Shown here: positions 31,183 through 53,528 of the stretch, in pieces
Layout: each line of letters opens with the position of its first letter
Numbering within the stretch: the stretch's first letter is position 1
The notes under the pieces: generated by a model
Database searches by the model: none
The model's input: the letters and a program-made list of their open reading frames with translations, nothing else
Told to the model about the DNA's origin: nothing
Position numbers and translations under genes: made by a program
Source: Lentinus brumalis
Lineage: Eukaryota; Basidiomycota; Agaricomycetes; Polyporales; Polyporaceae
Direction of reading: 5' to 3'
Assembly (NCBI GenBank): GCA_001792895.1
Contig: MARA01000012.1
Coordinates: 310,001 to 374,000 of the forward strand
Length of the DNA stretch: 64,000 bases

Positions 31183-32334
31183 ATGTTGTCGACGTTCGCC
31201 GCTGCTTTCCTCGCCTTCACCGGTGCTTTCGCACTTCCCGCATGCGCCCTCACTCTCCCCGTCACCAACCTCACCGCTCGCGCCAGTGTCTCCAGCTCTC
31301 TCTTCCCGGTTAGCCCCCAGATCAGTTACTGGACCACCGACTCCGGGATCGCCAACTCAAGCCCCCTCTCCGATGCCACTTTCCGGCCCCACAATCAGAT
31401 CACCGCTCTCTCGCACGACTACGTGACCGCGCCCGATGGCAAGAAGTCCATGCAGGCGCAATACCCCGAGGGGTCGTACACGTTCAGCCACGACCCGCAG
31501 GGCGGGTTCTCATTCTACGCCCCTGGCCCGTCGTCAGTCGATCTGACCACGGCGAAGGAGGCCACATTCAGTTACGACGTCTACTTCCCGTCCGGCTTTA
31601 ATTTCGTCAAGGGAGGCAAGCTCCCAGGACTGTGTAAGTCTTTCCCACATGCACCGCTCCGCGGAGGTGCTGATGAGATTTGTTATCGCAGACGGCGGAG
31701 ACAGCGACGATGAGGCCCTGTCCTGCTCCGGTGGCAGACGCGACGACGGCTGCTTCTCGGTACGCTTCATGTGGCGCACGGCCGGGGCCGGCGAGCTCTA
31801 CACGTACCTCCCGCCCGATTACGACGAGAACCAGGCCGTCTGCGACATCCCCCCGTTCTCCACGTGTAACGATGTCTACGGCGCCTCTGTGGGCCGTGGC
31901 GTGTTCACGTTCAAGACCGGCGCACGCACGACGATCGGCCAGCGCGTCAAGCTGAACGACGTCGGCGATGCGAATGGCGAGATCGAGCTCTTCGTGGCCG
32001 GCAAGAGCATGTTCTCCGTCGGCGGGCTAGTCCTGCGCGACAGTTCCTCGGGTCGAATCCGGGGCATGCAGATGCAGACGTTCTTCGGAGGTGAGCACCT
32101 TGCCTTTGTGCGCTGCTTCGGTTCGGCTCCGCGGTCAGCTGGGGCGTGCCGTCTTTCGGTGCGCCGAGCGCCCTCCCGTTCCGCCTTCGTCCTGTCTGCT
32201 GCGGAGGTCACGACATTCCGACATGTGTGCTGACCTGCCTTCCCCTTACAGGCTCCGACTCCTCGTGGGCCTCTCCGAAAGATCAGGACGTCTACTTCTC
32301 AGATTTCTCGGTCGCTATTACGGAGAAGCTCTAG
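31183..32334 (+). CDS. PL14-like secreted polysaccharide lyase, copy a, 310 aa
   Basis: Exons 31183-31633, 31692-32090 and 32252-32334 (introns 58 and 161 nt) close in phase. A signal peptide is evident (MLSTFAAAFLAFTGAFALP). The mature domain has the family landmarks ALSHDYVTAPDG, GFSFYAPGP, KLPGLYGGDSDDEALSCSGG, GELYTYLPPDY, TIGQRVKLNDVG, GEIELFVAGKSMFSV, RIRGMQMQTFFGG and YFSDFSVAITEKL. PL14 enzymes act by beta-elimination on uronic-acid polymers such as alginate or glucuronan; the substrate of this basidiomycete branch cannot be told from sequence. The intron positions, inside LPGL|Y and after FFGG, are shared by every copy in the window. The frame is intact. Confidence 0.88.
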
Positions 32335-32601
32335 GCCGCGATGCCACAATGCCTTGATGGCAATTTTTCAGGGTCCCTGGTGCGGCTACATACTTTGAAG
32401 GTCGTTGTTATATGCCGGCCCACGAGGTCGTTCCTTCTTTTGACATGCTGCTCTAGCCTCTCGCTCTCTCACTTACTTGGGGAAGAACGCGCCGCTTCGC
32501 GCGCCCGGTCCGATTCCACTGATGACTCACGGCCGAGATTTGTCATGCTTCAGCTCGCATTCAAGTACATTAACCATGCGGACAACGTGCATTTAACATG
32601 A

Positions 32602-33776
32602 TTACAGAGTAAAGACTTCAGGGAAGGGGGGTTCCTTATACAACACGGGCGAGTTATCCGGCTTGGGCTTTTCAGCCAGCCAGTAGAGAGAGTTCAGGAT
32701 CCACGACACCGTGTTCACATTCCCTCGCTCGGCCTCGGCTCGAAGGAGCGTGCATTCAATCAATACGAGATCGCCGGAGTGTAGTTTGGCTTGCGTGATA
32801 TGATCCATCTTAGACTTCTCGCGAAACGCCTCGGTCGCGTCGTATATCTCTTCGTGACTCTGTAGTACAGTGTGAGTGCGAGTGACACCGGGCAGGATCG
32901 GTTACTCACAGGTGGCCCTTCGTTGTCACTCGCTGGTGTGAGCACGATGAAAGTCTCCATCCGCGTTGTCGGTGTCGAGGCTGCGTTGTTGTAGAGTGCT
33001 ATTGCGGCTTGACGGTCGCCCTCGCGGACAAAGTCGGCTACGACTCGGACTCGAGGTGTCGGGAAGTTACGAGTGACTACGAGAGATGCGTCTATGAGCG
33101 TCGCGAGCACCCAGATCAGTACAGGTCGATTCCTGTGCGTGGCGTGCATGTAGCGTGGGTTTTCGTCGACGACAGACCAATGGAGGGTGGAGGGTACCCG
33201 ATGGATTGGGAACCACGGTCCTTGGTCGTTGTAGTAGTTGATGAATTTGTATAGATAGCTGTAGCGTCGTATGAGCACGAGCATATTATGTGGGCGAGAG
33301 GTACATACGTGATCGTTCTTGGAGAGACCCATGGCTCGGTGACGAGGTCGTTTGATCGGGCTTCGTAGTCGTCGGTGTAGATGTGAATCACTTTAGGTCC
33401 CGTGGGGGACTGCAGCGCCACGCGAGGCCTCTGTAGAGTCCGAGGAGTTCGAGGGGTTTCGTGTGCCTTGTCTTCGAAGCTGAGCGTGCGTTTGAACGTG
33501 CTCGGCCTAAGTCAGGACAAACGTGGGACGTACCGCAGGCGTTTACGAGGAGTCTCGGGCGAGGGGGTGAGTTCGCTGGTTCCATCTGCGTAGGTTGTTG
33601 CATAGGGACGCGCTCCCTAGGGAAACGTTCAGACGGGAATGCGTCGGGAGGAGAGGAACATCGTACGCTTCCTTCGGAGCACGTGCGCTAGGGTTCGTCT
33701 GTACAGCTCTGGATACCGCGAGTGTGTTCTTAGCGTTGTTAGTTTGTGGCCGTCCGGCAGGCTCGTCGTCGGCCAT
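32602..33776 (-). CDS. cluster gene A: unassigned, GD-V module at C-terminus, 323 aa
   Basis: Five minus-strand exons (33776-33635, 33585-33534, 33479-33309, 33258-32910, 32859-32602) join to 324 codons with all phases closing. The N-terminal 90 residues are disordered and Pro/Thr-rich (SPETPRKRLR, ETPRTPRTLQRPR). A compact domain follows: KVIHIYTDDYEARSNDL, YLYKFINYYNDQGPWFPIHR, RPVLIWVLATLIDASLVVTR and ETFIVLTPASDNE. The C-terminal module is LHSGDLVLIECTLLRAEAE followed by VSWILNSLYWL. I recognise no family. The last module resembles those of cluster genes B, C and D, and its alternating beta pattern would suit an OB fold, as in RPA-type single-strand DNA-binding proteins. That is inference. 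Confidence 0.72.
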
Positions 33777-33993
33777 GGATGCGAGAGCGAGGGATAGACG
33801 TGTGATTATGAGCGTCGAAGGATGTCCTGAGGTGAAGTGTAAGGGAGGTGCAACACGTGTATTGTCTTTTTTTTACGCTAATGACAAAAGAGGTTTAGAC
33901 TCTATGAGGGCCAGCACTGTCTAGACGAAAACTTTTTAAGTCTAAGGTACGTATGGTGTGGATCGACTTCTGATCGGGTTCGGAGCTGTCTTG

Positions 33994-35863
33994 TCACGTC
34001 GAGTCCCAAAGGAGGTAGATCGTGGCCAACTCGAACCCGACGGAGAACTCGGACCACGTCGTCGCCCGTGTCTTCCTCCAACGAGTCCACTCGGCGTCCA
34101 CGGCGATGACGTCGTTGTCTGTGAAGTCCACTGCGTTCAGGCGACGATCTTCAGTCTTGGCAAGGACTCCGTCGCGAGCGTCGAAGACGTTCTTGAACGG
34201 AAGGACCTGGACGGACTGAAGTGAGTGTGGGTCGTGGTTCATAGGTGGCATGAACAACATACCGTTTCGGTGAAGCTGCCACGCTGCCTCTGTCCTTGGA
34301 GACGACTCGCGAACACGATTTCTGGCAGATCTGTGCGCCGTTTAGCGACGTGCGCGTGCAACGTTGCGTGAAGACTCACCTGTGGGAGGTTGTGCTTTCC
34401 GATAGAGGGTTCGGATAGCTGCTTCTTCTGTGTCCAGGAGCAGGTGTAAACCGACGTTGACGCGACTTTGAGGTTTACCGGATCGGTCGAAGAACCAGCT
34501 CGTCCTGACGCGCCCCGTGAAGCGCAACAATGTCGGTGTGTTCCCAGGCTCGCACAAGCGTCTCTCCATCCGCCCGCGACCCCAGTCGAGACGCGCAGGG
34601 AGTCTGGTAACGCTGTAGATGTGCTGGTTTGGAAGCGACGTGCCGGTTATCTGCATGGCGAGCCTGTGTTCTAAAGTAAGCTTTTGATCTGTAGCAACGA
34701 TTGTCGTACTTACTGTTGGACTGCGACAGGGACGTCTTCGAATCCGGGCAAGAGCTGTGGTGCAACGGGCGGACCGACTACGACGCCAGCGTGAGCCAGC
34801 GGAGCATTGGCCTGTGGGTGCAGCGGATGCTGTCCTTGCATGGCGACCTGCGGAGCGTGGTGCTGCGGCGCTGGCGCGGGTGCCGGTACCAGCGGGAGGG
34901 CTGGCAATAGCGGGGTCTGGAATTGGGGCGCGGCGACGTGTCCATTCGGCACCTGCTGAGGACCGGCGACGGCGGCGGCGTGTAGCTGAGGGAGCTGCAG
35001 TTGATGGATGGTCCCTTCGCCGACGGTAGCATGAGCCACGGGCGTTGTCGCCAACGTCGGTGCGAGGATGGCTCCGGCTTCGTGGTCTTCAGCAGCGGGA
35101 GGGGCGGCTGCGGCCTCGGCGGTGCCGACAGTGGACGGAGCTATGACAGGTGTGGTGACGACGGCTGGCGGGGCAGCGGCGAGTGTGGTCACAGTAGGGG
35201 CTGGGACTGCGGGCGGAGCCGTGGCGGTGGCGCCGGGTGTCTGCTGGGTGACGCCGACCGCATGAGGCTCGGCGGTCGGAGTTCCGGTCGTCGTCGTTGG
35301 CTGAGCGAGCGGAGGCGCGACGACGTCCAGCAATCCGGTCGGAGCGGTAGGCGTGTCGAGCCCAGCTAAGGAGTGGTTAGAGTTCGGTTGAGGGACAGGT
35401 ACCGAGTTAACTCACCGATCGTTGCGATCGTGTTCGCGCCAGCAAGCCGCTGCTTTTGCGACACGCCGGCTAGCGTGCCTTGTCCGGCAGGGCTGTCTTG
35501 AGGAGTTGGCAGCCCGCTGTCGTTAGTCGCGGTCGACGGTGTGGAAGGAGCGGGCGAAAGCTCCCCGTGCGCGAAAGTGGGGGTAGACGGGGGCGTCGGG
35601 GTGTCTTCATCGATGCCGGGGAGGAGTGCGGTGGGGCTGTGGGAGAGGTTTAGCGTCGCTGGGAGATGAGTAAGGAAACTTGGCTTACTTCGGTGATGCC
35701 GGGCTTTGCTCAGCGATAGTATTATCGGGGACGTCATCTTCTGCCGTTCCGCTGAAAGGGATGAAAGTGAGCGTTCCCGTGGTAGGCGAGCGAGTAAGGC
35801 ATGTACGTACCGGCGACGTTTGCGCACACGCTCTCCAATCGGTGAGGCAGGTCGAGGGGGCAT
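33994..35863 (-). CDS. cluster gene B: unassigned, long Ala/Pro linker then GD-V-type module, 520 aa
   Basis: Seven minus-strand exons (35863-35811, 35751-35689, 35636-35416, 35365-34714, 34663-34380, 34330-34263, 34215-33994) close to 521 codons. After MPPRPASPIGERVRKRRR come about 290 residues dominated by Ala, Pro, Thr and Val, with a Gln/His/Pro stretch. The structured end begins ITGTSLPNQHIYSVTRLPAR, then LRFTGRVRTSWFFDRSGKPQ and SRVNVGLHLLLDTEEAAIR, and finishes DFTDNDVIAVDAEWTRWRK with SEFSVGFELATIYLL. The two ends of this domain look like beta-strand pairs. I do not recognise the family; the C-terminal module matches the pattern in genes A, C and D. Confidence 0.7.
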
Positions 35864-36274
35864 GTTGGCGAAGGTGTGCGAGGGACAGTAGAATGGAAGG
35901 GAACGGACGTCGACGTTGCTCGTGAACGGCGGAGGAGAGGTTTTATACGGCACTGGAGAGGCAGCTCGAAATTTTATTCGGGGAGACGGGGAGCCGCGAG
36001 GTGGTAGACCTCTCTGGAAAATTACCTTTGACAGCTGGCCGGTTGGCGACCAATGGCGGTTCTTGCGTCGGGACAGGTCCGCGAGAGACTTTCAGTCCTC
36101 TCGAAGAAGTTCGGCGCAAGTTCTAGCGCCATAACTCCGCTGTAATTTTCCATCCAGTGTCAACGTTCCGTACGTGTCGTCGGTGTCCGCCGTTCGGATG
36201 GGGCGGGAAGTGCGCTGCATATAAGGAGGATCGCGTCCGTCCGCTCGTCGACCTTCGTTGACATCAATCATCTC

Positions 36275-37397
36275 ATGGCATTTGTAGCTGGTAAGTCGCC
36301 AGACTTGCGCATGGATGACGTTGACTCACCTGCGGTTTCAGCATCTCCTACTGTGCTGGCTCGTGATCTGTGGCCTGAGTCGGCCGGCCGCATAGCGTCC
36401 GATACTGACGACGCGACTACGTTGCCAGCTCGTCGTATAGTCCCTGCGACGGTAGACGAGTTAATGGGATGGCTCTGCGTCGACAGCGGATCGGGTAATA
36501 CCACTCGTGTGTGGGTGCATCCGGACGTATCGGAAGGCAGGCGTTTGCAGCTTGTCCTTCGCTTGCAGGGCATCGTCGGCAACGTTAGCTTGGGACCTCT
36601 TGGAGACTGGAACGGGTGAGTTCTGTCCTGGCTGATGTCTGACCTCGTACTCACCATCTTCTTGTGGTTGTCAGGCAAGCCGAGGGAGCGCCCAAAGCGA
36701 TGCAGACCATGACGCTCGTCGGGACGCACTTCGCGGACGCCTTCGTTCCGCAGGTCCGGGCGCTGGAGAATATCAGGGATACTGTCCTTCATCTGCTCGG
36801 TCGCCGTGGTGTTGAAGGAGGTGGGAGTGCGGGACGTATCGTCCTCAAGCGTCGTGTGTTTGTCAAGGTGGGATTCGACCATGTAAGGCTCTCGTATTGC
36901 GTGGATCTGACAAGCAATGTTTGCCTTCGGACAGGTGTCCAGTGCGACAAGCGAGCCACCGACCGGTGGTGTTGTGCTCACTGAGGCGGAGGACCCCGCT
37001 CGTCGGGCTCGGCGGTTGCGACACATGTGGAGAGTGGAACGCAGGGTCGCCGCGAGTGAGGCGGATGTGGCGGGAGTCTTGACTCGCCTGGATCCGTTGA
37101 AGATCAAGCGAGGCGATCTCGTGGATGTCGCTGTGTCAGTCGAGGCGGTGACCATGCGTACGCGTGCCGGCAGACGCACCGAAGTGATGTTCTCACCTCT
37201 GCACGTCGTGCGGCTCCGGACGGCTGCGCGGATGAAGGTACGGACTTCACTGCATAGGTTGGATGCGATCGTACTGACCTTTCCGTCAGTTGCTTGTAGC
37301 GCAGCTGTATGGCCCTGGCAATGCCGACGAAGATGCTGACGGGGAGGCGGAGGTGGAGACAGGATTTGAGGATGGTGAGAACGCCATGCAACACTGA
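36275..37397 (+). CDS. cluster gene C: unassigned, GD-V module, 302 aa
   Basis: Exons 36275-36290, 36342-36615, 36675-36882, 36935-37237 and 37290-37397 close to 303 codons. The first intron is a multiple of three and could be read through, but it has a good donor, branch and acceptor. Landmarks: TRVWVHPDVSEGRRLQLVLR, LQGIVGNVSLGPLGDWN, MTLVGTHFADAFVPQVRAL, RIVLKRRVFVKVGFDHV, then LDPLKIKRGDLVDVAVSVEA with FSPLHVVRLRTA, and an acidic tail. It runs opposite to genes A and B and starts 411 bp from the start of B, so the two are divergent. The function is unknown. Confidence 0.7.
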
Positions 37398-37572
37398 GGC
37401 AATCTCGTCCGTAGCGTGCTCGCTCGCCGTAGCGGGGCGTAACGTAGTGATAGAAATTGTTCATAATTTCGTAGTGGTCAATACAGGCTGTTGTACAACT
37501 TTACATTCTGGCTTGCATGAAGACGGAGACGTCGGGGACATAGGTGAAGGAGATACATGTTGAGTACAGTAC

Positions 37573-38469
37573 TCACAGTGAGTCGAATAGCTGCCAGTGC
37601 CGCAAGATGCCTAAACCATCCATCAAACACGGGCCTCCACACGGGCGACAGTCGAGCCTCCATATGACGGTGGTCTGAAGCTTGTGCTCTAACAGCGGTT
37701 CTAGCCGACACGCGAGCGCCCCCCTGTCTGAGAATGACCGAGCCTGGGCGGTGCATGCCCATCGATGCGCGGGGCATGGGTGAGTCGTGCTGCGCAAGTC
37801 GGGCCACGCGCGGGCGGTCAGGCGAATGTCGAAGCCTCGGGTGATGTAGAGTCTCGTGTATTCTGTGTCGTCCGGATCACCGTCGCTGAGGAGGGCTCTG
37901 TGATGGAACAAGAGCGAGGGGTACCCGGTGCCGAAGTGGCGACCGTTGACGTAGGAGAAATGGATGGTCGACGAGGAGCGGGCGATGGGGGTGAGGGGGT
38001 CGTTCTGGTAGGACTGTGTTCGGTAGATGTGCACGTTGCCCTTTGGTGTGCGCATCTTCGTCACGCTCTCTGCACCGTGCATCGGCAGCCACGAAGGGGA
38101 CGCTTCGCGGTCGGGGAAACGGCATGGGACCTCGTAGCCGCCTTGTACGAAGGTGAGGTGGTACGTGAGGTATTTCCACTCTTGATTGCTGATGAACAGC
38201 TCGAGCGTGTCGACCACGATGGGTTCGTCGCGGAGAAGGAATCGCAATGCGCCATCGCCTCCTATGAACGCATCGAGAGCGTTGAGCAGAGCGATGAACT
38301 CATTCGGCTTTGGCATGAACGCTTTGACGATTTCGTATAAGGTGTTAAGGAGAGCGTCCTTCACCAGGAGTAAGTACTCGTGCGAACATAGCCGTAACCT
38401 CAATAGTCGGCGCAAGGGCATGAATCCGCAGACGTGAAGTTGTATATGAGGGGGAAGGCGTTTGTGCAT
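37573..38469 (-). CDS. cluster gene F: F-box-like N-terminus plus nucleotidyltransferase-like module, 298 aa
   Basis: A single exon from ATG 38469 (the upstream in-frame codon at 38484 is GTG). The start MHKRLPPHIQLHVCGFMPLR and RLLRLRLCSHEY resembles the helical part of an F-box. Next comes ALLNALDAFIGGDGALRFLL, the same 'GG-x-x-A' turn after a helix seen in cluster genes E and G, then a beta/alpha segment ending in aromatic-rich KYLTYHLTFVQGGYEVP, and VHIYRTQSYQNDPLTPIARS with HFGTGYPSLLFHHRALL. The C-terminus has several Cys (RLDCRPCGGPC). The family is unknown. It is a paralog of E and G at low identity. Confidence 0.65.
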   Translation of the reverse strand: MHKRLPPHIQLHVCGFMPLRRLLRLRLCSHEYLLLVKDALLNTLYEIVKAFMPKPNEFIALLNALDAFIGGDGALRFLLRDEPIVVDTLELFISNQEWKYLTYHLTFVQGGYEVPCRFPDREASPSWLPMHGAESVTKMRTPKGNVHIYRTQSYQNDPLTPIARSSSTIHFSYVNGRHFGTGYPSLLFHHRALLSDGDPDDTEYTRLYITRGFDIRLTARAWPDLRSTTHPCPAHRWACTAQARSFSDRGALACRLEPLLEHKLQTTVIWRLDCRPCGGPCLMDGLGILRHWQLFDSL

Positions 38470-38688
38470 GGTGAGCGAGGGCACAGGCTACGGTGTCCGC
38501 TGAGGAAGGAGCGCTGTTCGCAGTATGACGGTTGAGCAGAGTCAACGTTCACGGTGTACTTAGCTGAGATGACCATCTCGGGAAATGCTGGACTAAACCA
38601 CAAATGTATACTGGCAGTACAGTGATTGGGGACAAATGCACGCTAGAAATGTAGGCTAATCTAGGATGAAAGAGGAACAGTGAGTTGT

Positions 38689-39645
38689 TTATCGTACAAT
38701 TTCTCGTAAGCAGATGCGTGCGCCGGGCGTGATGACACGTTGGCCGCTGTGGCAGGTGGGCGAGCAGGTATGGCCGCCACGCCACCACACAGCTGTGACG
38801 GACTCGGTCGCGCCCAGAACCTGGCCACAACGATGTGTGATGGGGGCAGACGAACCTCTGAACGAGAAGCGGTCTCCAAAGGCACGCATAGCGGATGCGC
38901 AGCCGACCGACTCGACTCCTGTGCAGATAGCACCCGGCGCCCAGCTCTCCCACTCCACCTGCAGTGTCCAGCCCTGCTTCCGCCACCAGTCGTTTTCTTC
39001 GACGTCTTCCTTCCGGATGTTCGCGAACTTGTGCAGCCGCGCGGGATTCAGAAGACCGCGACAATCGCGCGTGAGGGATGGGTAGCTGGAACCGAACGCT
39101 CGCGTTGAGACAAAGTTGAAGTAGCCCGTGTGGAGTGCCGCAGAGATTGGGTAGAGAGGTGAGCGGTTGGTGCTCTGAACGGCGTCGACGGTGAGACGAC
39201 CCTTGGTGAGACGTATGATGTTAGCGACGCCTTCAGGAAAGAGCGTCCCTGAACGATGTTCGGTGACGAGATGCTCGGCAGTAAACCGTTCCATGCGCTC
39301 GAGGTACCGGACGACGTGGTAGTAGAGGTCGTGCGGGACGTAGATGTGAATGCGGTCTGGCACAACGGGAGTTGGAAACAGGATGTAGACCGCTCCCGCT
39401 CCCCCGACGACTGCCGAGTTGTCGTCGAGCACGGTCAGCAGCCGGTCGTAGTCCCAAATGACGTCCGAAAACACTGCACGGGAGCGTATATGGATAGTGG
39501 ACAGGACATGTGTTTCGGCGAGGCGAGAGACCTGGCGAAGGCGAACCATGTCATCGCCGTCTAGCAGTTCCATGACAGCTCTGGTGAGCTCGGGTAGGAG
39601 ACCACGGATGAAAGACTGATTGGAGTTGATGAGAGGAGGATACAT
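38689..39645 (-). CDS. cluster gene E: F-box-like N-terminus plus nucleotidyltransferase-like module, 318 aa
   Basis: A single exon from ATG 39645. GLLPELTRAVMELLDGDDMV with RLRQVSRLAE is F-box-like. The middle domain is LLTVLDDNSAVVGGAGAVYI, then VPDRIHIYVPHDLYYHVVRY, the counterpart of gene G's GGSAVVHM...HDFDFYVPIA. Then come ALHTGYFNFVSTRAFGSSYP and SLTRDCRGLLNP. The C-terminus is rich in Cys and His (CGQVLGA, HTCSPTCHSG), possibly metal binding. A 'GG-S/A' turn followed by acidic residues flanking a beta strand is characteristic of the nucleotidyltransferase fold, but here the acidic pair is partly replaced (DRIHIY), so activity is doubtful. Confidence 0.68.
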   Translation of the reverse strand: MYPPLINSNQSFIRGLLPELTRAVMELLDGDDMVRLRQVSRLAETHVLSTIHIRSRAVFSDVIWDYDRLLTVLDDNSAVVGGAGAVYILFPTPVVPDRIHIYVPHDLYYHVVRYLERMERFTAEHLVTEHRSGTLFPEGVANIIRLTKGRLTVDAVQSTNRSPLYPISAALHTGYFNFVSTRAFGSSYPSLTRDCRGLLNPARLHKFANIRKEDVEENDWWRKQGWTLQVEWESWAPGAICTGVESVGCASAMRAFGDRFSFRGSSAPITHRCGQVLGATESVTAVWWRGGHTCSPTCHSGQRVITPGARICLREIVR

Positions 39646-39748
39646 TGCTCGAGGTGAAGGTCAACTAAGGCGCAAAGGTGTTATGTAGCTTTAGAGGGGT
39701 TCGATCGAACTAAGAGAATCGAGGTTGGGCCGAATCTGAAGTCTATAT

Positions 39749-40679
39749 CTAAAGACCGCCACGGTATCGACTGCTCCTGCCGCAAAGAGCACGCGCGGCG
39801 CGGTGGACGAGCGTGAGGGACAGCAGCTCGAATTTGACGGACCACGTCGCCCAGCCGTCATGCGAGGTCCTGGCGAAGCAGCACTCGACTAAGACCATGT
39901 CCCCAGGGACGAACTCGTTGATGCCTAGCTGTCCCATGTTGGATTGGAAGTCGAAGGCGGCACTTCCGTCGTAGAGATGACGAAATACCTATGGGATGCA
40001 TTAGATAGTAACGATCCGGATGAGAACGACAGTCTTACCGACTGAGAGTCAGGTATGGAGGCCGCGGCGAGGAAGGTGCCGTCGCTAGGAAGGTGCTCTC
40101 CTTCGTTCCACCACGTTAGCATGGGAATGGTACAGGATGCAGTGTAGACGTACTAGACTTGGGTGCTGTGCGGCGATTGAGGCTCGCGTGTCGTACAATA
40201 TCACATTCGCGGAGGAGTTGGACTTTGACGGAAAGCGATGGAGAGTGATTGGGACGGATATCGTACGACACGTCTTCGAGACAGCCAAGAACCCAGATGG
40301 AGGCCTCGGTATTCTGGACGCAAAGGTAGCGTTCGCGCGACCCGGAGCCCCATGTAGCGTTCGGAGGCACGGCACCTAGGGAGTAGATGCCGACGACCGG
40401 GTCGACAAAGCGAGCCATGGCGTCGAGTTTGCTAGAAAAACTGTTATCTAGCGCGCTCACATAGAATGGAGTGATACGTACAAGAAGTCCCGCATCGTGA
40501 TCGTGGCCGCGACGGCTGGGGGCAGTACCAGAAGATCCTTCCGATACGTCGTGACGATAACCTGTTTGGCGGCGGTCCCACTCTGGATTGTGGCAGACTC
40601 CGAGCTAACGCACGTCAGAGGAGCGTTCTGGGACTAGGGAATGTGCATACCTTGCGCGTGACGGTCTGGATGGAGGCAT
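39749..40679 (-). CDS. cluster gene D: unassigned, GD-V module, 246 aa
   Basis: Five minus-strand exons (40679-40651, 40604-40482, 40431-40197, 40152-40039, 39988-39749) join to 247 codons, all phases closing. The protein is short and compact: KQVIVTTYRKDLLVLPPAVA, FVDPVVGIYSLGAVPPN, RYLCVQNTEASIWVLGCLED, DIYVYTASCTIPMLTWWNEG, and the terminal INEFVPGDMVLVECCFARTS with ATWSVKFELLSLTLV. The last part is the clearest match to gene A's LHSGDLVLIECTLLRAEAE and gene B's FTDNDVIAVDAEWTRWR. It is the smallest member, so it may show the minimal core of the family. Confidence 0.7.
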
Positions 40680-41385
40680 TGCGCTAACGAGAGAGGGTTA
40701 GGAGGGACGATCGGCGTTTGGGTTAAAAAGGTTGAAAACTTAGTGCACGCACGTCATGTGGTCACAAAAACTTGAAGGACTTTCAATCTGCAATCGGTCG
40801 TTGAGAGGGACCGAAAACCGCTGAGTAAGGACACTTGGTCGATCAAGGCCAGTCGGTGTTCTGGCCTCCGACGGCGGAGCGCGGAGTGTCTTAAGACAGG
40901 TTGTACGGGGTCTGCGATACACGCGGGGCCCGAGCGAGGCATATCGAAATGATGTCGGCACCAGCACGAGACCGTGCGTTGTCGCGTGTTCTAGCGATCA
41001 CGCAAAGGATCTAGAAAGCTTGGGTCGGGTTGTCGATGTCAGGATGTGGGGCGGAGCACAACGTTGGAACGCCGTTCCGACTCACGGTTTGCGCCCCGAG
41101 TTATCGCTGTAGTCAGAGCAGATTTACGCGGGAAAGGATAGACCCTGGGTGCAAAATTGAGGACCAGTGTCTGATAAGAAGTACGGCAGTCGTTCTGACA
41201 GAAGTGCTTAACTCCTTTGGCGCGGCGAGATGAAGCGTAAGTAAAGTGGTGCTATTGAAAGATGCGCGTACGTTAGGTACTCACAATGTGCTACAGCATT
41301 GTCGCGCGGCATACATGGTGTTGTGCAGCAGCCGACGCGATGCACCACCGCCTCGGCATCGCGTGTCTCATACAGAATCGGGGAT
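40680..41385. other. spacer inside the cluster, no supported gene
   Basis: This divergent spacer lies between cluster genes D (minus) and G (plus) and must carry both promoters. Short frames near 40740-40970 and 41030-41233 lack support. Confidence 0.5.
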
Positions 41386-42268
41386 ATGGAGGCAGACATT
41401 GCTCGCCGACATCGTGAGCTGTTTCAAAGGTAAGTCGAAAAGCAGATGGACGACAGCGCTGTGACACTGACCAACGTACAGCATAGTGTCCGACGTCGAC
41501 GCGTTGCACCAAGTCATGCGTGAATGTGGCGTGGTCCTTGGTGGGTCGGCTGTCGTTCACATGGTCTGCCCAATGTTCGACGACGTCCACGACTTCGACT
41601 TCTACGTTCCCATAGCGAGGGTCGAGGAGTTCGTAGAGCACTTCGTGGTGTGGGAGGGCTACAGACGATGCGGCGAGGACACTTACGTGGCATCGAACGG
41701 GTGCACGCGCGGTGATCTGTGCTACCTCAGTGGCATCGGGAAGCGAGTCCAGCTCGAGCTGGGGCAGTGTCGCGTAGACGTCATGGGGGTTGGCATTGGG
41801 GACGACTGGGACTTCGTCCTGACACCGATCGCGTCGTCATGGACGACACTGTTGTTCAACTACGCCACCGCCGACTGGGTGGTAGTTGGGTACCCGGGGT
41901 TGACCATGCGAGGAAGAGGCCTCATCCAGTGGGACCGAGTCTTGCACCCCAGTTTTCCGGGAGGGACGCGAGTGCCGGAGGTGGAGAAGTACCAGGGTAG
42001 AGGATTCGAGTTCCAAACACACGCCGGCGAGTGGGATGTGGACGCGCAGGGACGCCCGAGACCTTGTAGCCGAAGCTGGGTCTGCCGGATGATGTTCAGG
42101 AGCTTCGATGACCGCGGCTGTGTGCGAGTTCGAGTGGGCGAAGGGAAGGACACGGTTCCAGCCGTGCAGTGGAGGTTTGGGGGGACGGCGTGCCCGTCCG
42201 TTTGCACCGAGCCAGAAGGACAAAAGGCATGTGCAGAGGTTCATGTACCATGGTGCGCGTGTTATTAG
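41386..42268 (+). CDS. cluster gene G: nucleotidyltransferase-like module, 276 aa
   Basis: Exons 41386-41429 and 41482-42268 close to 277 codons; the reading frame extends upstream of the ATG without an obvious better start. After DIARRHRELFQSIVSDVDAL comes the best-preserved form of the shared module: GVVLGGSAVVHMVCPMFDDV followed by HDFDFYVPIARVEEFVEHFV. A GGS turn and a D-x-D on the next strand fit the nucleotidyltransferase-fold active site. Later: LELGQCRVDVMGVGIGDDWD (a possible third acidic strand), FNYATADWVVVGYPGLTMRG and a Cys-containing C-terminus with CSRSWVCRMMFRSFDD. There is no F-box-like start, unlike E and F. The enzymatic reading is inference; the fold call needs a profile search. 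Confidence 0.65.
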
Positions 42269-42513
42269 AGCTCTGTAGAAGTGGTAATGGCAGAAAGAGG
42301 TTGGCGTCGCTACGTAGGAGTTGAAAGCAAAGAGTAAACAAGTGTAAGCGCGCGCGAGGAGCATCTTCTCCTAGCAGGAGCGCGGTGCCCTTCCATGAGC
42401 TATTCGACGTATGCGGATGTCGGATAGACGATTGGTAACAATGACATGTGTTCTGAGTGACGATGCAATACATTGGCGATACAGTAAGACAACAGAGTGA
42501 CTATGGAATCAAC

Positions 42514-42972
42514 TCAGGCGGTGTTGCGAGTCTCTCGGAACGCGAACTGAACAATGGACGCGATATTGTTTGCAATGAGGCGGCCTACTGATCGCCGGAC
42601 TACTTCCCAAAAGGCAGTGTATCGATGGCCTGGTGGGAAGCTAGGCATGGTACGAACTCGAATGGTGATGGAGGGGGGGAGCCGGCGGTCAGCTTGTCTT
42701 GGATTGCTGGAAGTCGTGAATATGAGGAGCATGTTGAACTGTAATGTGGAGAAGGTTAGCTCCGAATCGTATGGAGAGCGTTAAGGTAGGCGTACCGGCT
42801 CGCGACCAGCGGACATCATCAGAAGTTCGCCCAATTGACGCTGCAATTCTGGGTCGCTGATATAGATCTCCGCAGTAGGGCGGAAGGGCCCCTGGAGTGC
42901 GTCAACGGTGACGGATTCGTATTGGAATTGAGTCAGAGGATCGCTCTCGATATCTCTAGCGACGTTGTTCAT
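42514..42972 (-). CDS. cluster gene H: unassigned small protein, 133 aa
   Basis: Minus-strand exons 42972-42796 and 42738-42514 join in phase 0 to 134 codons. The product has QYESVTVDALQGPFRPTAEI then YISDPELQRQLGELLMMSAG, FNMLLIFTTSSNPRQADRRL and SITIRVRTMPSFPPGHRYTA. An additional 5' exon cannot be ruled out. The position right downstream of the Helitron gene, on the same strand, suggests a shared transcription direction. No family is recognised. Confidence 0.5.
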
Positions 42973-43174
42973 CGCGGTGCTGGATGAGAGGCGTAGAAGT
43001 ATTAGTGGTGAAGGAGGAGCGCAGGAGGGGAAGGAAACTTACATTGCAGTCTTATTAGTAGATAGTCTCGGGGCGGAGTGGGATAGCTTGCCGCGTTGAT
43101 CGCCCCTGGGGCGGTGGACGATTCTGGGTGCCCGGACGGACGCCGACCAAGGAGCAAACGGCGTGCTGTGTCTT

Positions 43175-46100
43175 CTACTGCATGAGAACGTAGACGTAGT
43201 GCGACGCTAAGCGTGAGCGAGAAGATACGATAGTGGCAGGATGATGGATAGAAGCGGCGTCTGGAATGCAGTACCGGCCGGTCACAGCGCCGTCGTGGAA
43301 CCAGCACGATCCGGTCTGGTCAAAGTATCGAGACGTGAAATGCGCCCAGCCGAAGTAAACCGCGCCCGCCAGGCGCCATGTGCACAATTTCTCCTGGCTC
43401 ACAGCGCGAATCTCATCGTCCGGGATGACAGTTCCTGATACGACTGATTCGAGCACAATCAGCGGAGGAGCGGAGAGTATGGTGGTGACCGTCGGTGATT
43501 GTACCCCGCATGCTGTACAGGACCATGGGTAACCTGACTTTAGTAAGGTGTCGATGTACTCCTGCGCAGAAATTGACGATCGATCGGAGAACGTCGATCG
43601 GTACAAGGACTCTCCGAGGATCCAGACATACGAGTCTGACATGCGAGGGACGTCATTGTTCACTAAGCCGCAGGAGCTACAGGTGGAGGACGCACGAGAG
43701 TAAGGTGTTGGGCAAGTCAGAAGCAGGTAGAGGACTTCAGCGGCGGAGACCTTCCGCTGTCCATGACGGGGATAGGCGTGTGGGAACGCTGCGTAGAGCA
43801 CATCTCGAATGAGGTTGCGACAGAGTTCAAGAGCTGCGGGAATGCGACGCGCGGTGGGGAAGTGTTGGCGCATCAGTGTTAGCAGGGAATTTCCGGGAGC
43901 GACACCTTCAAGCCAATGGTCACCATAATCGACGTACAAGTTCCAGAGAATGGTCAGCGCAGCGTCGTAGCCACAGCTCCAGTTCTCCGCGTCCCACGGC
44001 ACACCATAGCGGACAGTAAGTTGTGAGGAAGATGTTGAGTCTTCGTTGGACTCGGACTGCTCGTGTTCGGTGCCCCGGTGGCAATCGGTTGTGACTTGGA
44101 TATCATAAGTGGCGGTATCGCGGACAGCTTGAGGGTTCCTTCTCTTTGGTGCTCTTGTTGGACGCCAGTTCTCCGGAGCAGACCGTTTCGTTCCACGTCG
44201 CGCGTTGGGGACGTCGTCGTCGGCATTGAGCGCGGAAAGCGCACGAGTGGTGTCTATGCAGGGCGTGAGTTCCGAAATGGGTGCGTCAGACCAATCAAGG
44301 GCCTGATGTACGTTGGGGGTACAAATCGTTCGCCCTTCCATGCGGTGAAGGAGGCCAGGAGAGCAGCACGGGAGTTGCCGTTAACGGTGGGGGGAGTGTT
44401 TTCGCTAGGTAGCATTGTGTGATGTAATCTAGCAGTTCGAGTTCGCGAAATTCACGACGGAGTGAACTGGATGCGCCGCACGTAATTTTTGACGTGTCGA
44501 AACTGTCAAGAATCAGCGTACCTGCGAGCGAGGAACTGCGTGAGAGGCAGGTATAGATAGACTGGTGATTTTTGCAATACTTCAGATGACATACGTTGTC
44601 AGGACGTGTTTGTCCTTGGCACGCGAAGTCGGTCACAGCGAAGTTTGGCAATACCATCACCTGCTCCCGTTGGACGTAGACGGCGATGTCGTCTGCAGGC
44701 AATATACACCGGACCGTCTTCTTTGTCTTGGTCAGAGGGATGACATTGGGCGGGAGGCCCGGCAACTGCACCGGCCTAGGTGGATTGGTCAATTCCACGA
44801 AGAGCGTATCGAGTGTCAACTTGCCGCATGGCATCCGATGAGCATCCCACTTCACAACGCGAGCTGCAGCGCCATTTGTCGCGCATAACTCAGTAGCCTC
44901 GTTGTACTTCAGAATCACAGGCATACCGATGCATAGGTGCAGAACACCTGGATGATGACCGGATAACGTAGGCGGAATGTTCCATAGAGCCTCTTGAATA
45001 CGAGGAGATATGACATTACTCTGTCGAACAGGATCAACGAAAGCGTCGTATGCTTTCTGTGCTTGCCGAATGGAAGCTCCGTCCTTATTTTTCCCCCAAA
45101 GATCGCATGAGTAGAAGCTTACCAGGGGAACATTGCGTGCCCTCGCATACTCACGTACTCGGTCGGCATTGATCGCGTCACGGTACGCGTTGAAAGCGGT
45201 GATGATGGGGACCTCGCGGAAACGTTCGGAGTGCAGCTCGCTGCCGCCCTTGTTAGGATCGTGAACTCGAGTGAGAAGAAGCGCGACGTCGTCCTTGGTG
45301 CAACGCGCGAAACGCATGTTCTCGAGTGCTGTCCGGAATTGAGAGTCTGTCTCCGACAGTCCTTTTTGTCGCATGTTCTGTCTGAGAATCACGACGGTCG
45401 TGAATTGGTGCCACAATGCTTTGCCGATGGCGCAGCGCTGGGCAAACTGAGTTGACGCACGGGACCATTCGCCTACTGTCGGACTGTATAGCGCTGGTGA
45501 GCGAGGTCCAGGTGGGGGAAGCTGCGCGAAATCACCCGCCAAAATGACACTCTTGCCTCCGAATGTCTGTCCCGTGTCTGGAAATGCGAGAGAGAGACGC
45601 GAGTTAATGTGGAAAAGGTCTAGACAGGATATCATTGATACTTCATCTATGAAGATCAGGTCCACGCGCAAAAGCCGACTGCGCAGCTTCTCAAGAGATG
45701 TGAGAGAGGAAGTCTTCTTCTCGGAAGGTAAGGAGAGACCGAGGACAGAGTGGTAGGTCGATCCGCCAATGAGAGATGCGCTGCTACCAGTGGGGCCAAG
45801 AACGATGAAGCGGTGCGCTTCTTTGCGCGCTTTCAGGAAGTCCATGAGTGCGAGCAGTACGCGGGATTTCCCGGTCCCACCCATTCCTCCAAGGTACATC
45901 CGCATGGGCTGCACGTCGTGATGGTGCAGGTGAGTGGCGATGAGTAGAAAAGCCCGACACTGTTCGGTGTTCAACGTAAAGTGGTCGATAACTCCGTGCA
46001 ACAGGAGCAAGTGAGGATCTTGAGGGCCACGGCTGATATCCACATGGTGAGTTCGAAGTAAGGCCAGATCTTCTGCGGTTACGATCTGAACTAGGCCTGC

Positions 46101-49100
46101 CCAGCCCGGGGGTGAATCTGTAACAGGTGCGGTCGGAGTCTGCGAGGAAGACTGGGCGGGGGACCCAAGTCGCTCCTTCAGGATGGCCTCGCGCGCAGCC
46201 GCAAGAAGTGCCTTCCATTCGATCGGTGATTTGGAAGTATGCACGGAAGGGCAAGGGACAGAGCAACGCGAGGCCAGTGGTAATTCGGTTTCACCGCAAT
46301 GCAAGAGCGAGCGCATAGCGTCCATCTGAAAGTTCACCTTTGCGGAGCGCTTTCCAACGGCGCCCTCGACAAGGAGGTCGACAAGGGAAGTTTCAGTATG
46401 TTCGTATTCCTCGTTGTCAGGCAGAAAAGGGATCTGATCAGCGTGTACAGCATCAGATACACCTCCAAGTCGCTGATCTCCGTATCCAGCGGCGCGGCGC
46501 TGCGCTGAGAAATCATCGCGCGCATCCAGACACTCATATAACAGGTTCATGTTTCGCATAACCGCTTGGTGGTTAGCAGCAAACGCAGTGCGCTCAAATG
46601 CGGAAGCCCACGATTCATCTCTGCGACGCAAGTCAGTTCCTGCCCGCCAACCTGTGGGACAGAACAGTGTCATCATCACCCTACAGTACTCTTCGCGGTC
46701 GCCACGATCTGGACGTGGCAACGCTCTGCCCACGAAATTGAGAATGTAAGATTTCGCCTCGTCGCGGAGATACACACCATGAGTGCCTCGCAAGGGGTGG
46801 CCGGACATGAAACGATATGCCTGGCCTTTTGGTGGGGCAGGAGCATCATACTCGCAATCCTCGTCCTCGGTTTCGGGGTCATCGTCGTCGTCCTCCTCAG
46901 ATTCGTCGTCTAAGTCGTCCTCGTCAAGGTCTGTCTCTTGCACGTCATCGTCTATGAAGGTTGAACGTGTAGTGGACTCTGCATCTGACTGTGTCTTTCG
47001 CAGCTTTCGGACGTCAGTGCGGCGCAGGAAATCATATAGGGACCAATGGGAAAAGTAGGGAGGGCGGTGCACGTAGTCGTTGACGCGGTTTAGCTGCACG
47101 ACGCCTCGGGAAGTGTAACCGAGCATCACGCGCTCCTCCTGTTCAGCTTCTGTAGAACGCGCGGCGGTATCCTCGTAGTCGGTGTGCATTACGGTCGATA
47201 CATATGAGTACCAGTAAAACACTTTGAACGTTCTGTTTGTGTAATGGTCAGAAAATCCGAGCAGATGACTACACACGGACGGGCCCCCGATCTCAGAACC
47301 AGATGTGAGGGCATTGACAATCTTGACGATGAGCGAACGCGCCGCGTACTCCTTGTCGTTGTCGCCCGGGACCAGTATCTCGGTGTTTTTATCAAGCACT
47401 GCGCGCACGGTTTGGAAGAAAGTATTTGTATTCAGAGACGTTTTTGTAACATAGTCAGTGACATATGCTACGACAGCTTTCACCTGTGTACCAGACAGCA
47501 GGCACGTTACGTCAGTATTGCAACGCAGAACGTAGGAGAGATACGGGTTGAATGTGTTGATCCACTGTTCATTCTTAGCGAAGCGGATGGCCCCACTCGA
47601 TCTGTCCACTTCTGTACAGGGGAAGAGTTCGCGTGGAAAGCGCGCTTTACAGTAACCTTTACTAGAGTCGCCTTTCCAACATCCTTTGCCGTGGAAAGGG
47701 TCATGACGATTAGAGCGGAAGATAATCTCGTCCACGTCAAGCTGAAAGCGTGCGTACCAGTCTGCAAACGATTGCTCGTCGTCGGGTGGCGCGATCGGAA
47801 GCTCCACGACAGGATCTCGTAAGCCACTACGCATACGTACTCGAGGGACCATCTGACCATCTTCTCCTGGGGTCAGATACTGCTCTTCGAGTCTGTCAGA
47901 GAGTGCTTGGCCGGTCTCTTGCAAGTAATCACCTGTATGGCACTGCTCCAGCCAACCAAGCAGAGATTGCTCGAAAGAGGAGTCGGCGAGGATACGATCG
48001 CGGATCTGTTGCGGTGAGATGGAGCCTTGAATCCACAGCAACGTATGGAGATGGAGAGTCTTCCGCCCTTGCTCTTCGACGGTGCCGTAAAATGCCTCTG
48101 TGGGTCCGAAAAGACCAGGTTCGTTGGAGTCGACCTTCAAGACGGTGGAGGTGAAGAGCGTGACGGCGTTATGAAAGAAGCGGGCAGCACCCACGGGGTT
48201 TTTCGCAATGGCGCGCAAACGATCGTTGCTGGAAGGCAGCGCAGGTGCAGGTTGGAGCAAGTCAATGCTCTCGCCACAGTAATGTAGGCACAGCGGGTTC
48301 TTGAAGTCAGCCGGGGCGAAAGTGATGAAGAACACGGGCACGCCTATTGCATAGATGAGGCTCTTGATTTCGTTACGTTGATACTTACGAGCGGTATGAG
48401 AGCCTTGAACGTGCCCTGCGACGTGATCTACAAAAGTCATGAGTTCGAAACATGCCTTCTCAGCATCGTTTTCCGGTGTGACATACGTAGAGGTTTTGCT
48501 GCGCTCGATCAAAGAATCGAGCGCGCTGCGATCGAGCGCGAGAATCTTGTCTGCAACGTGGTGAAAGTTCTTACGCGCTGTGAGCAGATACCCGCCTTGC
48601 GCACTGGAGCGGATTTGATCCTGATTGAAGACTATGAAGGGAAAGCAACGGTCCGTCTGGAACCGGCGGTCAGCATAGAACAACTTCGCGCGAACTTGCG
48701 CCGACTTGCGCAGACAGACAGACATACGTTTGTTGCCGAATCCGCCAAGTCCGTAAGGGTACAGCCAAGGAAACATAGCAGGGAACATGTCAGGATTGTG
48801 GTAGATGCTCTGAGGACTATGATCATGACCGTAAGCGAGGACATGACCGCCGCTATCGAAATGGCGAATAGCTGCAGCGAGTTTAGCCTCATACGTCATA
48901 TTGACAAACTCTGCACTTGTTAGACCATGCACAGTGAACAAACATTCACCGTCATCGACGCCGCGTTCGTTGACAGCCTCGTAGACAGCGAGAGACTCGT
49001 CAGGTGCGGAAGGGGAGGTCCTGCGATAAATGATCCCGACGGGGGGCTCGTTGTCAGTGTATGTGGCGAGGTTCTCCAGTGAGATACGAACGTCGTGATA

Positions 49101-50317
49101 GGCGACAGAATTGAGCTGTAACCACTCTAACGCAGACAGGAGGACGGAAGGGCGCACTAGGAATGGTGTACGGCGAATATCTTCGTCTGTAGGCTTTGCA
49201 GAGCCCACGAACAAGATTGCAAGACATTCCTCAATCTCTTTCTTTGGCGGAGGCAGAACTTCGAGCAAGCGAGCGACGGGCTGACCGAAAACGATGACGT
49301 TGGCAGCGAGGAACCGCTGCCCTGAAGAGACTTGTGCGACGCAGAAACTATGGCGCTGACGGGCAATGAGCAGTTGTTCGACGTAAGTGAGACCTTGGAG
49401 CTGAGGAGGACACTCTCCGATCCATCTGCCGTTGGCGAGAGCATATTTGGGCACCCTATGCCGTTTTACGACATTGAGGCAAGGCCGACATGCAGAGAAG
49501 TGCCTGTGCCCCTCGATCATTCGAACAGCAGGCTCGTATAAGATCGGACCGGGGATTTCAAGGATGGGATCGGCGAAACTCGCACGTTCTTGGCGAGTGA
49601 TGCCCTCACCAGGCCGCTCTAAGCAAGAAAGGTCGACAGAAGTGTCCGAGACGGCGTGTAGATCTTTTATGGGGGTCAAGCGGGCACAGATCGCGCACGG
49701 AGCTTCGGCGAGGGACGAAGAGCTGATGGCATCACACCATTCTTTGACGATGGAAGCCTGCTGTCGCTCACTCAAAGGAGCAGGCGGAAACTGGACGGCT
49801 GTGGTGGTGATGGATGTAGAACGTGCAGACGGAAGACATTCCGCAGACTGGACATTGCGGACGTTCACAGGAGACGGGGAAGGGACGGGCACAATAGCAA
49901 ACAGATATACAATTGACGAACAGTCTGACATGCACGTGTGGGCAACTGTGGCCGCGAGCATCTGCGGACGAGTACGACAGGAACGGCCGACGGCGATACC
50001 GTGCATACGAAGGACAGCGGGGAGGATGTCCACCGTAGCATAAAGGACAGCATCCTGCAGTGGAGGACGGATCGCGAATAACGACGCGTCTCTCGCACAG
50101 GCATCCGCGGCGTCGTCCTGGAAACAACAGCGAACGAGACGAGCACGGAAAGGCTCACTTTGGGGCTTGGTTCCGCATAAAGCGGGCCATTGTAGGAGGT
50201 CCGACTCCGTAGCCCATGCTGCAACATACACTTAGCGAGGGCGAGATCGCGAATGCATAGAAACAGCTCACATAGCGCGGAAGCCCTTTGGGAGGGGGCG
50301 GGTCTTGCTCGAGGCAT
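43175..50317 (-). CDS. Helitron Rep/helicase with C-terminal USP-like cysteine-protease domain, two apparent frameshifts
   Basis: Minus-strand exons 50317-50272 (MPRARPAPSQRASAL) and 50218-43175. In order: a Helitron N-terminal region with two CxxC-type patches (PCAICARL; HFSACRPCLNVVKRH); the Rep domain with the HUH motif in GRKTLHLHTLLWIQG and paired tyrosines in VVAYVTDYVTK; an acidic linker; and an SF1B Pif1-like helicase with GGMGGTGKSRVLLALMDFL, LIFIDEVSM, ILAGDFAQLPPPG, and CQGQTRPDNV near the end. Two single-base gaps, at the G6 run 44389-44394 and the G5 run 44315-44319 (plus strand), separate this from the C-terminal domain. Correcting both gives LLASFTAWKGERFVPP then NVHQALDWSDAPI and 2363 residues in total. 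The C-terminal domain has NWSCGYDAALTILWNLY (Cys box), CSSCG and CTACG, and FGWAHFTSRYFDQTGSCWFH (His box), as in ubiquitin-specific proteases. Confidence 0.9.
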
Positions 50318-51124
50318 GAGTGATTATAGAAGGTAAGGCAAAGAGGCTGACGCGATGAAGAACTGAGAAAGAAGCAAAGACAAACGTAACGGTAAAACAT
50401 ACATGGAAATCCTGGACCCCACACAGAGCACACTCCAATGGAGGCAGAGTGATGAACACCCTCTGGATCTAGAAGAGCCACCGAAAAGGGGACCTCAGTA
50501 CACCGTGACAGAATCAACGGTTTCATGACGGAGAGACCACGTACGACCTAGAGGAGCAACATAAGGTCAGGTCAGAAAGACGTGATACATTGAAGAGCAT
50601 CATCCGCACCTCGGAGAGATGACTGCGGGCAATAGCCCGCACCAAGGATGAGAAGAAGAGGCAAAGCAGGAAGTCCTGCAAAGCAGAAGTTGACGAAACG
50701 CAGGTCAACAGGATCGGAAAGGATGCAGGGAGCGAGCGTAGTCGTGGTGGCAAACGGAAATCTTCACACGAGGACAGAAACAAGCGGAGAGATCCGGAGA
50801 GCTCAATCGGAACAACCCGGGTACAGGATTTGTACCTCACGTGACCAGTGCAGGTCTCAAGGAGATGATAAGCCGATTCCAGTGGAATCGGAATCGGGTT
50901 CATCTCTTCGGGTTGGTGGTTTCTATTATTTTGCAACGGCTCTGTGATGTCCCGGTTCTCGGCCTGATCCCTACTCACGTCAACCTGTAGCTTATCTGTA
51001 GCTGTATCTCTCATAGCATTGGCAAACAAAGCAATGACCATGTGTAATCCTCGTGCTCCGCCTATTATGACTCGTGGGTACCCGCGGGGCGACCTTTCGC
51101 AGTTTGTTAGTCTAGAACTGAGCA

Positions 51125-52457: not shown

Positions 52458-53528
52458 ATGTTCAAGACGCTCGCTTCCCTCATCGCTTTCGGACTTGCTT
52501 CCGTCTCGGCCCTTCCATTCCCCGGTAATACCACCCACATCCGCCGCGCTACATCCACCCTCTTCCCTGTTTCCCATAGCACCTCCTGGTCTGTTTCCGA
52601 CGACGTCTCTGGCGCTCTCCCTTTCAGCGATGACACACTACGCCCGTTCAAGGCGATCAGTGAGCTCAGCCACGACTATGTCACCGCGCCGGATGGAGTG
52701 CTCTCCATGCAGGCGAAGTATCCAAAAGGTTCCTTCAAGCCTTCAGCACAACCCCGCGGCGGTGTCTCCTTCTACGCTCCTGGTCCAGATTCGGTCGACC
52801 TGACCACGGCCAAGGAGGCGACGCTCTCGTACTCTGTTCTCTTCGAGGACGGTTTCGAGTTCGTCAAGGGAGGAAAGCTCCCGGGTCTTTGTACGTCACA
52901 TGGTCCGCATTCATCTGTTCATATGCTCACATGTGTATATGTTTGCAGATGGAGGAAACAGCGACGATGAGGCCATCTCATGTTCGGGCGGCCGTCGCGA
53001 TGATGGCTGTTTCTCGGCGCGCTTCATGTGGCGCCGCGAGGGCGCCGGCGAGCTCTACACCTACCTGCCGCCCGACTCACCCGAGAACAAGGCGGTGTGC
53101 TCCGTTCCACCGGAGTCGGACTGCAACGATATGTTCGGCGCGTCCGTCGGGCGAGGCTCGTTCACGTTCACCCCGGGCAAGCGCACGACAATCGGCCAGC
53201 GCGTCAAGCTGAACGATGCCGGCAAGGCGAATGGGGAGCTTGAGCTGTTCGTTGATGGCAAGAGTATGTTCACCGTTCCGGGCCTGGTGCTTCGGTCGGC
53301 GGATGCTGGGCGCATCCGTGGTATCCAGATGCAGAGTTTCTTCGGAGGTGAGTCTCTGCCTCCTTCAGTTGGGCGCGCTGTTTCGATGCGCCCATTGTTG
53401 TCCTGCGATTGTTGTGAGCGTGCTGACTGACTGCTTGGCGCGCAGGCTCCGACAGTTCCTGGGCGACGCCGAAGGACCAGAATGTGTTCTTCGGTGACTT
53501 CTCGGTGGCCATCACCCAGAAGTTGTGA
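52458..53528 (+). CDS. PL14-like secreted polysaccharide lyase, copy b, 304 aa
   Basis: Exons 52458-52890, 52949-53347 and 53446-53528 close in phase. Signal peptide MFKTLASLIAFGLASVSA. This is the closest relative of copy a in the window: exon 2 is the same 399 nt and exon 3 the same 83 nt, with shared strings such as CSGGRRDDGCFS, TTIGQRVKLND and WATPKDQNVFFGDFSVAI. RIRGIQMQSFFGG marks the end of exon 2. The frame is intact. It heads a run of four more copies to the right. Confidence 0.9.

Follow-up and report, generated by a model that had tools for sequence, protein, structure and literature searches.

The window (G000:C24:310001-374000; 64,000 nucleotides, from a genome of 53.4 Mb in 136 contigs) contains one 18.4-kb Helitron2-like element, with Rep on the minus strand. 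The copy in the window is referred to hereafter as C24, and positions are those of the window. As listed in Table 1, the element carries a Rep/helicase, a protease-like domain and a series of accessory genes, for which models were made with a splice-aware script and compared across up to four copies; the window models are stop-free by construction of the script. The initial annotation had described eight genes, A to H, beside a Helitron Rep/helicase in the interval 32602..50317. The Rep/helicase was confirmed by its Pfam domains and models could be rebuilt for all eight genes, but a proline/alanine-rich gene and the protease-like domain had been missed, and the element, when delimited by comparison of copies, proved to be larger than the interval first given for the same cluster.

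Table 1. Features of the C24 element, with window positions, strand and the basis of each assignment.
Feature	Position	Strand	Basis
Whole Helitron2-like element, 18,419 bp; 5' end 50893, 3' end 32475	32475..50893	-	Colinear copies and ends common to short derivatives
5' terminus TTCCGATTCCACTGGAATCGG, palindromic; inverted repeat of the 3' subterminal repeat	50873..50893	-	Copy/derivative comparison
Rep/helicase: DUF6570, Helitron_like_N, PIF1	44295..50231	-	All three above Pfam cut-offs, single ORF
Cysteine-protease-like domain (USP-like by motif)	43175..44341	-	Conserved motifs
Gene H, two exons, ~133 aa, no known family	42514..42972	-	Splice-aware model
Gene G, nucleotidyltransferase-like, catalytic signature kept	41486..42268	+	Model, phmmer, alignment
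Gene D, A/B/D family; middle exon uncertain	39749..40418	-	Splice-aware model, profiles
Gene F, 318 aa, F-box-like N-terminus and degenerate nucleotidyltransferase-like fold	38689..39645	-	Model, alignment
Gene E, 298 aa, F relative, catalytic signature degenerate	37573..38469	-	Model, phmmer
Gene C, four exons, no relation to A/B/D seen by profile	36275..37397	+	Splice-aware model
Proline/alanine-rich gene, four predicted exons, between C and B	34710..35863	-	Same position in four copies
Gene B, three exons, A/B/D family	33994..34569	-	Splice-aware model, profile match to D
Gene A, A/B/D family	32602..33421	-	Window model 32602-33332 plus approximate 5' exon absent from that model
3' terminus: subterminal repeat GTGGAATCGG, then GC-rich hairpin, then CCCCAAGT	32475..32519	-	Copy/derivative comparison

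The Rep ORF has the composition that characterizes the Helitron superfamily, in which a Rep of HUH, Y2 type and a PIF1 helicase form one protein. The motifs LHLHTLLW, YVTDYVTK and GGMGGTGKS, which we take to be the HUH, Y2 and Walker A motifs respectively, are all in place. No Pfam match to an AP endonuclease was obtained at E-values up to 0.1 in the Rep ORF or the next ORF, and the element does not class with the Helentrons by this character. The genome also contains another group of Reps with near-identical scores (C47:10729, C61:521265, C127:5184, C84:250687, C92:180196, C1:10180, C108:83443 and C112:56548). These are mostly very long open frames (to ~2,600 aa), several of them near contig ends, and the group is possibly recently active.

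The protease-like domain is probably spliced or fused to Rep; in some relatives the domain and the helicase share one frame. Putative USP-type Cys, His and Asp residues and CxxC pairs are conserved in 12 protease-domain sequences. The domain gave no Pfam USP match and no significant similarity to solved deubiquitinases, the top solved structure against PDB profiles being USP54 with a weak score (E 0.049). It had three matches in the protein database.

Genes E, F and G are nucleotidyltransferase-fold-like, with the features of the Pol beta fold. The initial annotation had placed the three in one family, and the phmmer scores agree (F-E 38 bits, G-E 36, G-F 26). The nucleotidyltransferase catalytic signature (GG/GS, DxD and a third D) is kept in only four of 34 aligned members, two G and two G-like sequences; the aligned F and E sequences no longer have it. 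E and F in the window match F-box below the Pfam cut-off, and 14 of the 34 relatives match it at E <= 1 (best 1.2e-4). F had four protein-database matches; the C51 copy of F shares 98% identity with a Lentinus brumalis protein across 294 residues. Named homologues of F, D and the protease come from Lentinus, Cerioporus, Polyporus and Trametes. These matches make it likely that the host is a polypore near L. brumalis.

Profile comparison places A, B and D in one family, linked via the D profile, which matched A at E 1.6e-11 and B at 5.3e-8 (hhalign); A and B compared directly gave a weak match (E 0.014). A family of four, A to D, had been proposed. This was correct for three of the four, because C shows no relation by profile: its E-values to D (0.42) and B (0.3) are like that of an unrelated control profile (0.4), and C was not confirmed as a fourth member. 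Pfam searches returned no match for A, B, C, D, G or H, and D gave no significant sequence match against PDB profiles. The AF2 model of D had a pLDDT of 34, and D had six matches in the protein database. The strand pattern of A, B and D suggests a possible OB fold.

Comparison of copies had been suggested as a way of defining the ends of the element, and it yielded termini common to the copies and to short derivatives. Five derivatives (C82, C47, C56, C60 and C1) have both element ends paired 289-435 bp apart, and a sixth (C63) has them paired 2.7 kb apart. End-only derivatives of this kind are the usual hallmark of non-autonomous relatives. Because the short derivatives carry both termini, the C24 ends were set at 50893 and 32475, positions that are uncertain by one base since a T is present on both sides. 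The terminal repeats are asymmetric and inverted, with hairpins, and are not of the form 5'-TC...CTRR-3'; they correspond to the Helitron2 ends described in PMC5148889. Canonical Helitron1 ends were rejected after this comparison of termini.

Genome searches with either C24 flank found no empty site and no element-free allele. The C51 ends have no direct flank repeat, and the repeat in the C24 flanks is paralogous lyase sequence only. Rfam at gathering thresholds and a tandem-repeat search returned nothing. Tandem paralogs, mutually 70-76% alike, flank the C24 element (31414-32095, 52671-53352 and 61630-62410), the left one lying within a polysaccharide lyase 14 ORF (Pfam).

Three diverged copies, on C51, C93 and C49, are colinear with C24. 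When the whole window was compared by BLASTN with ~30 kb around each of them, the matches were confined to 32475-50894 and fell in a single order and orientation in all three, the compared 5' flanks being short (~1 kb in C51, ~0.3 kb in C93) and the 3' end of C49 lying outside the compared stretch. Identity to C24 was 77-81% for C51 (one 5' piece 72%), 69-72% for C93 (one 5' piece 89%) and 66-72% for C49. In C49, E and F were missed by BLASTN and recovered as proteins, and H was recovered by a partial match. The C51 alignments contain stops in G (one), C (two) and exon 2 of A (one). In the C93 copy the 3' end is broken, the final portion of the hairpin being missing. This copy is also bracketed by a direct duplication of the sequence at its 5' side, 166 bp long and 100% identical (C93:465171-465336 and C93:484683-484848; L032:171-336 and L033:9683-9848), which is odd for a Helitron.

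To describe the association with Rep genome-wide, matches within 15 kb were merged into clusters, the window copy included, and a cluster was scored as associated if it lay within 25 kb of a Helitron_like_N or PIF1 match. Every cluster of D (14/14), C (8/8), H (4/4) and the protease-like domain (26/26) was associated, as were 22 of the 35 F clusters. Several loci resemble near-duplicate pairs, so the p-values of the association overstate independence. The remaining 13 F clusters, some of them near contig ends, had no detected Rep within 25 kb. By comparison, ~7.9% of the genome lies within 25 kb of Rep or PIF1 and a P450 control gave 3/61; the Rep/PIF1 positions are lower bounds, some split matches of one gene having been left out of the PIF1 list.

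Gene order was also conserved. Among the best 20 of 73 F matches, E follows F in the same orientation at 18 and D precedes F at 12; at the two without E in this place, C60 and one C126 locus, the next gene is C, on the opposite strand. In Lentinus brumalis, D-type and F-type proteins have consecutive locus tags and are recorded on contigs of equal length. The arrangement is different at L015, L016, L018, L019, L020, L021, L024 and L027, where D-F-E or F-E runs opposite to the neighbouring Rep. The initial annotation had anticipated both co-occurrence with Rep/helicase genes and a conserved order. The first was found for D, C, H, the protease-like domain and the 22 F clusters, and the second in the placing of E after F and in the colinear copies. 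It had also named the contrary outcome, single-copy genes away from Helitrons, which in this genome does not describe D, C, H or the protease-like domain, though 13 of the 35 F clusters do lie away from a detected Rep.

The arrangement of these loci bears on how the element arose. The C24-type element could be a fusion of modules from separate Helitrons, one with Rep, protease, nucleotidyltransferase, C and B (as on C60) and the other with D-F-E (as at several C126-type loci). C60 and one C126 locus indeed carry the protease, the nucleotidyltransferase, C on the opposite strand and then B, while D-F-E occurs at other loci with Rep in the opposite orientation. However, gene loss from a larger ancestor would give the same picture, and the loci were read in part; we consider such a fusion a real possibility but an unlikely one. 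It concerns the origin of the element and is compatible with our main reading, an element that inherits its accessory genes as a module.

Selection on the accessory genes was compared with that on Rep. Rep, the protease and every accessory gene included (D, B and A through selected exons; the proline/alanine-rich gene was outside the set) had dS values of 0.53-0.78 and dN/dS ratios of 0.03-0.20 between C24 and C51. The ratios quoted are limited to this pair because dS was saturated in several of the C93 and C49 comparisons; H compared with C49 gave a dN/dS of 0.39. Rep and the accessory genes have aged together under purifying selection. Simple recent capture was rejected by dN/dS, dS and the conserved gene order. 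That the accessory genes are captured host genes, riding as passive cargo, seems very improbable to us. In its favour, gene capture by Helitrons is described for plants, animals and fungi, and some F clusters are distant from Rep, as expected of a host source. Against it, the genes are whole, multi-exon and under purifying selection with a dS like that of Rep, their order is conserved across diverged loci, and D, C, H and protease matches in this genome occur exclusively near Rep. We give virtually no weight to another reading, a cluster of host genes or a segmental duplication lying next to a Helitron unrelated to it, which would suit a gene-dense region with multi-exon genes. Like chance neighbours, it was rejected by the colinearity, by the genome-wide association with Rep and by the common termini, since similarity ends at terminal motifs that also bound the short derivatives.

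Colinear copies, common ends, purifying selection and association with Rep thus largely uphold the original suggestion of a large Helitron carrying its own accessory genes and not random host exons. Counting against it are the failure to find an empty site, the F clusters away from a detected Rep, the stops in C51, the dN/dS of H against C49, the recovery of E and F in C49 as proteins only, and the odd ends of C93. We put the probability at about 0.88 that C24 is a potentially autonomous polypore Helitron2-like element that inherits some nine accessory genes as a module, together with the protease-like domain, a figure that covers the element and its inherited module only and excludes the tasks of the genes.

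Helitrons with extra genes are already known; what appears new here is an unusually gene-rich, conserved module. No description of this accessory module was found in the open-access literature searched. Helitrons or Helentrons with OTU, VTD, RPA, SET or TET/JBP genes have been described (PMC9741609, PMC12730594, PMC4067079). Helitron2/FoHeli of Fusarium oxysporum (PMC5148889) resembles C24 in its terminal hairpin, asymmetric inverted repeats and 3' repeat tens of bases inside; both have a RepHel and no matched AP endonuclease, but FoHeli is ~5-11 kb whereas the C24 element is 18.4 kb and has a conserved accessory module. HELPO1 of Pleurotus ostreatus (PMC4289320) shows that basidiomycete helitrons may have extra genes, as here: one to four uncharacterized genes lie downstream of its RepHel, and capB lies beside RepHel in several basidiomycetes. 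HELPO1 differs from C24 in its CT[A/T]G ends and fewer extra genes; capA and capB may or may not be relatives of A-H.

Helentrons and proto-Helentron-Pi (PMC4067079) are, like C24, gene-rich (~14 kb with several additional ORFs), and their RPA, OTU protease or SET genes have been proposed to aid transposition. Their accessory genes differ from those of C24, and Helentrons carry an AP endonuclease, to which C24 gave no match. The VTD and OTU deubiquitinases of Helitrons (PMC9741609), ubiquitin-directed cysteine proteases encoded with RepHel, offer a possible parallel to the C24 protease-like domain, although the motifs in C24 look USP-like. In fungal TET/JBP Helitrons, including Helitron2 in Agaricus (PMC12730594), the accessory gene is proposed to counter host silencing. 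It is a single dioxygenase gene, whereas no Pfam dioxygenase was found among the nine ORFs and eight further proteins scanned here.

If the element moves as other members of the Helitron family do, Rep would make its nick in the 5' terminus at 50893, one strand would then be peeled away by the PIF1 helicase, and the process would stop at the 32475 hairpin. From their conservation, the accessory proteins are proposed to aid transposition or fend off the host. Judged from their anatomy, G might transfer a nucleotide to host RNA or protein, for which we would give somewhat less than even odds. Rather more tentatively, A, B and D might bind single strand in an OB-like manner. With the same reserve, E and F, as F-box-like proteins on degenerate nucleotidyltransferase scaffolds, could act with the protease to adjust the ubiquitin system of the host to the element's benefit. 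The wider proposition that mushroom Helitron2 elements are self-contained replicons with a co-evolved kit (paralogous single-strand-binding A/B/D, a nucleotidyltransferase G with F-box pseudo-enzymes F and E, and a deubiquitinase) is more doubtful than any of these parts. If true, the kit would shield the transposition intermediate and reprogram host ubiquitin or nucleotidyl signalling.

Genes within Helitrons are usually regarded as captured scraps. Here about nine genes are whole, ordered and under purifying selection in diverged copies, an argument that the element depends on them. The helpers of rolling-circle transposition in eukaryotes thereby become testable by deletion and reconstitution, and proteins that databases call "hypothetical" gain leads, in the nucleotidyltransferase-like fold with F-box signals and in the A/B/D family. 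Overall, the element seems closer to a small, self-contained replicon than to a vehicle for random gene fragments.
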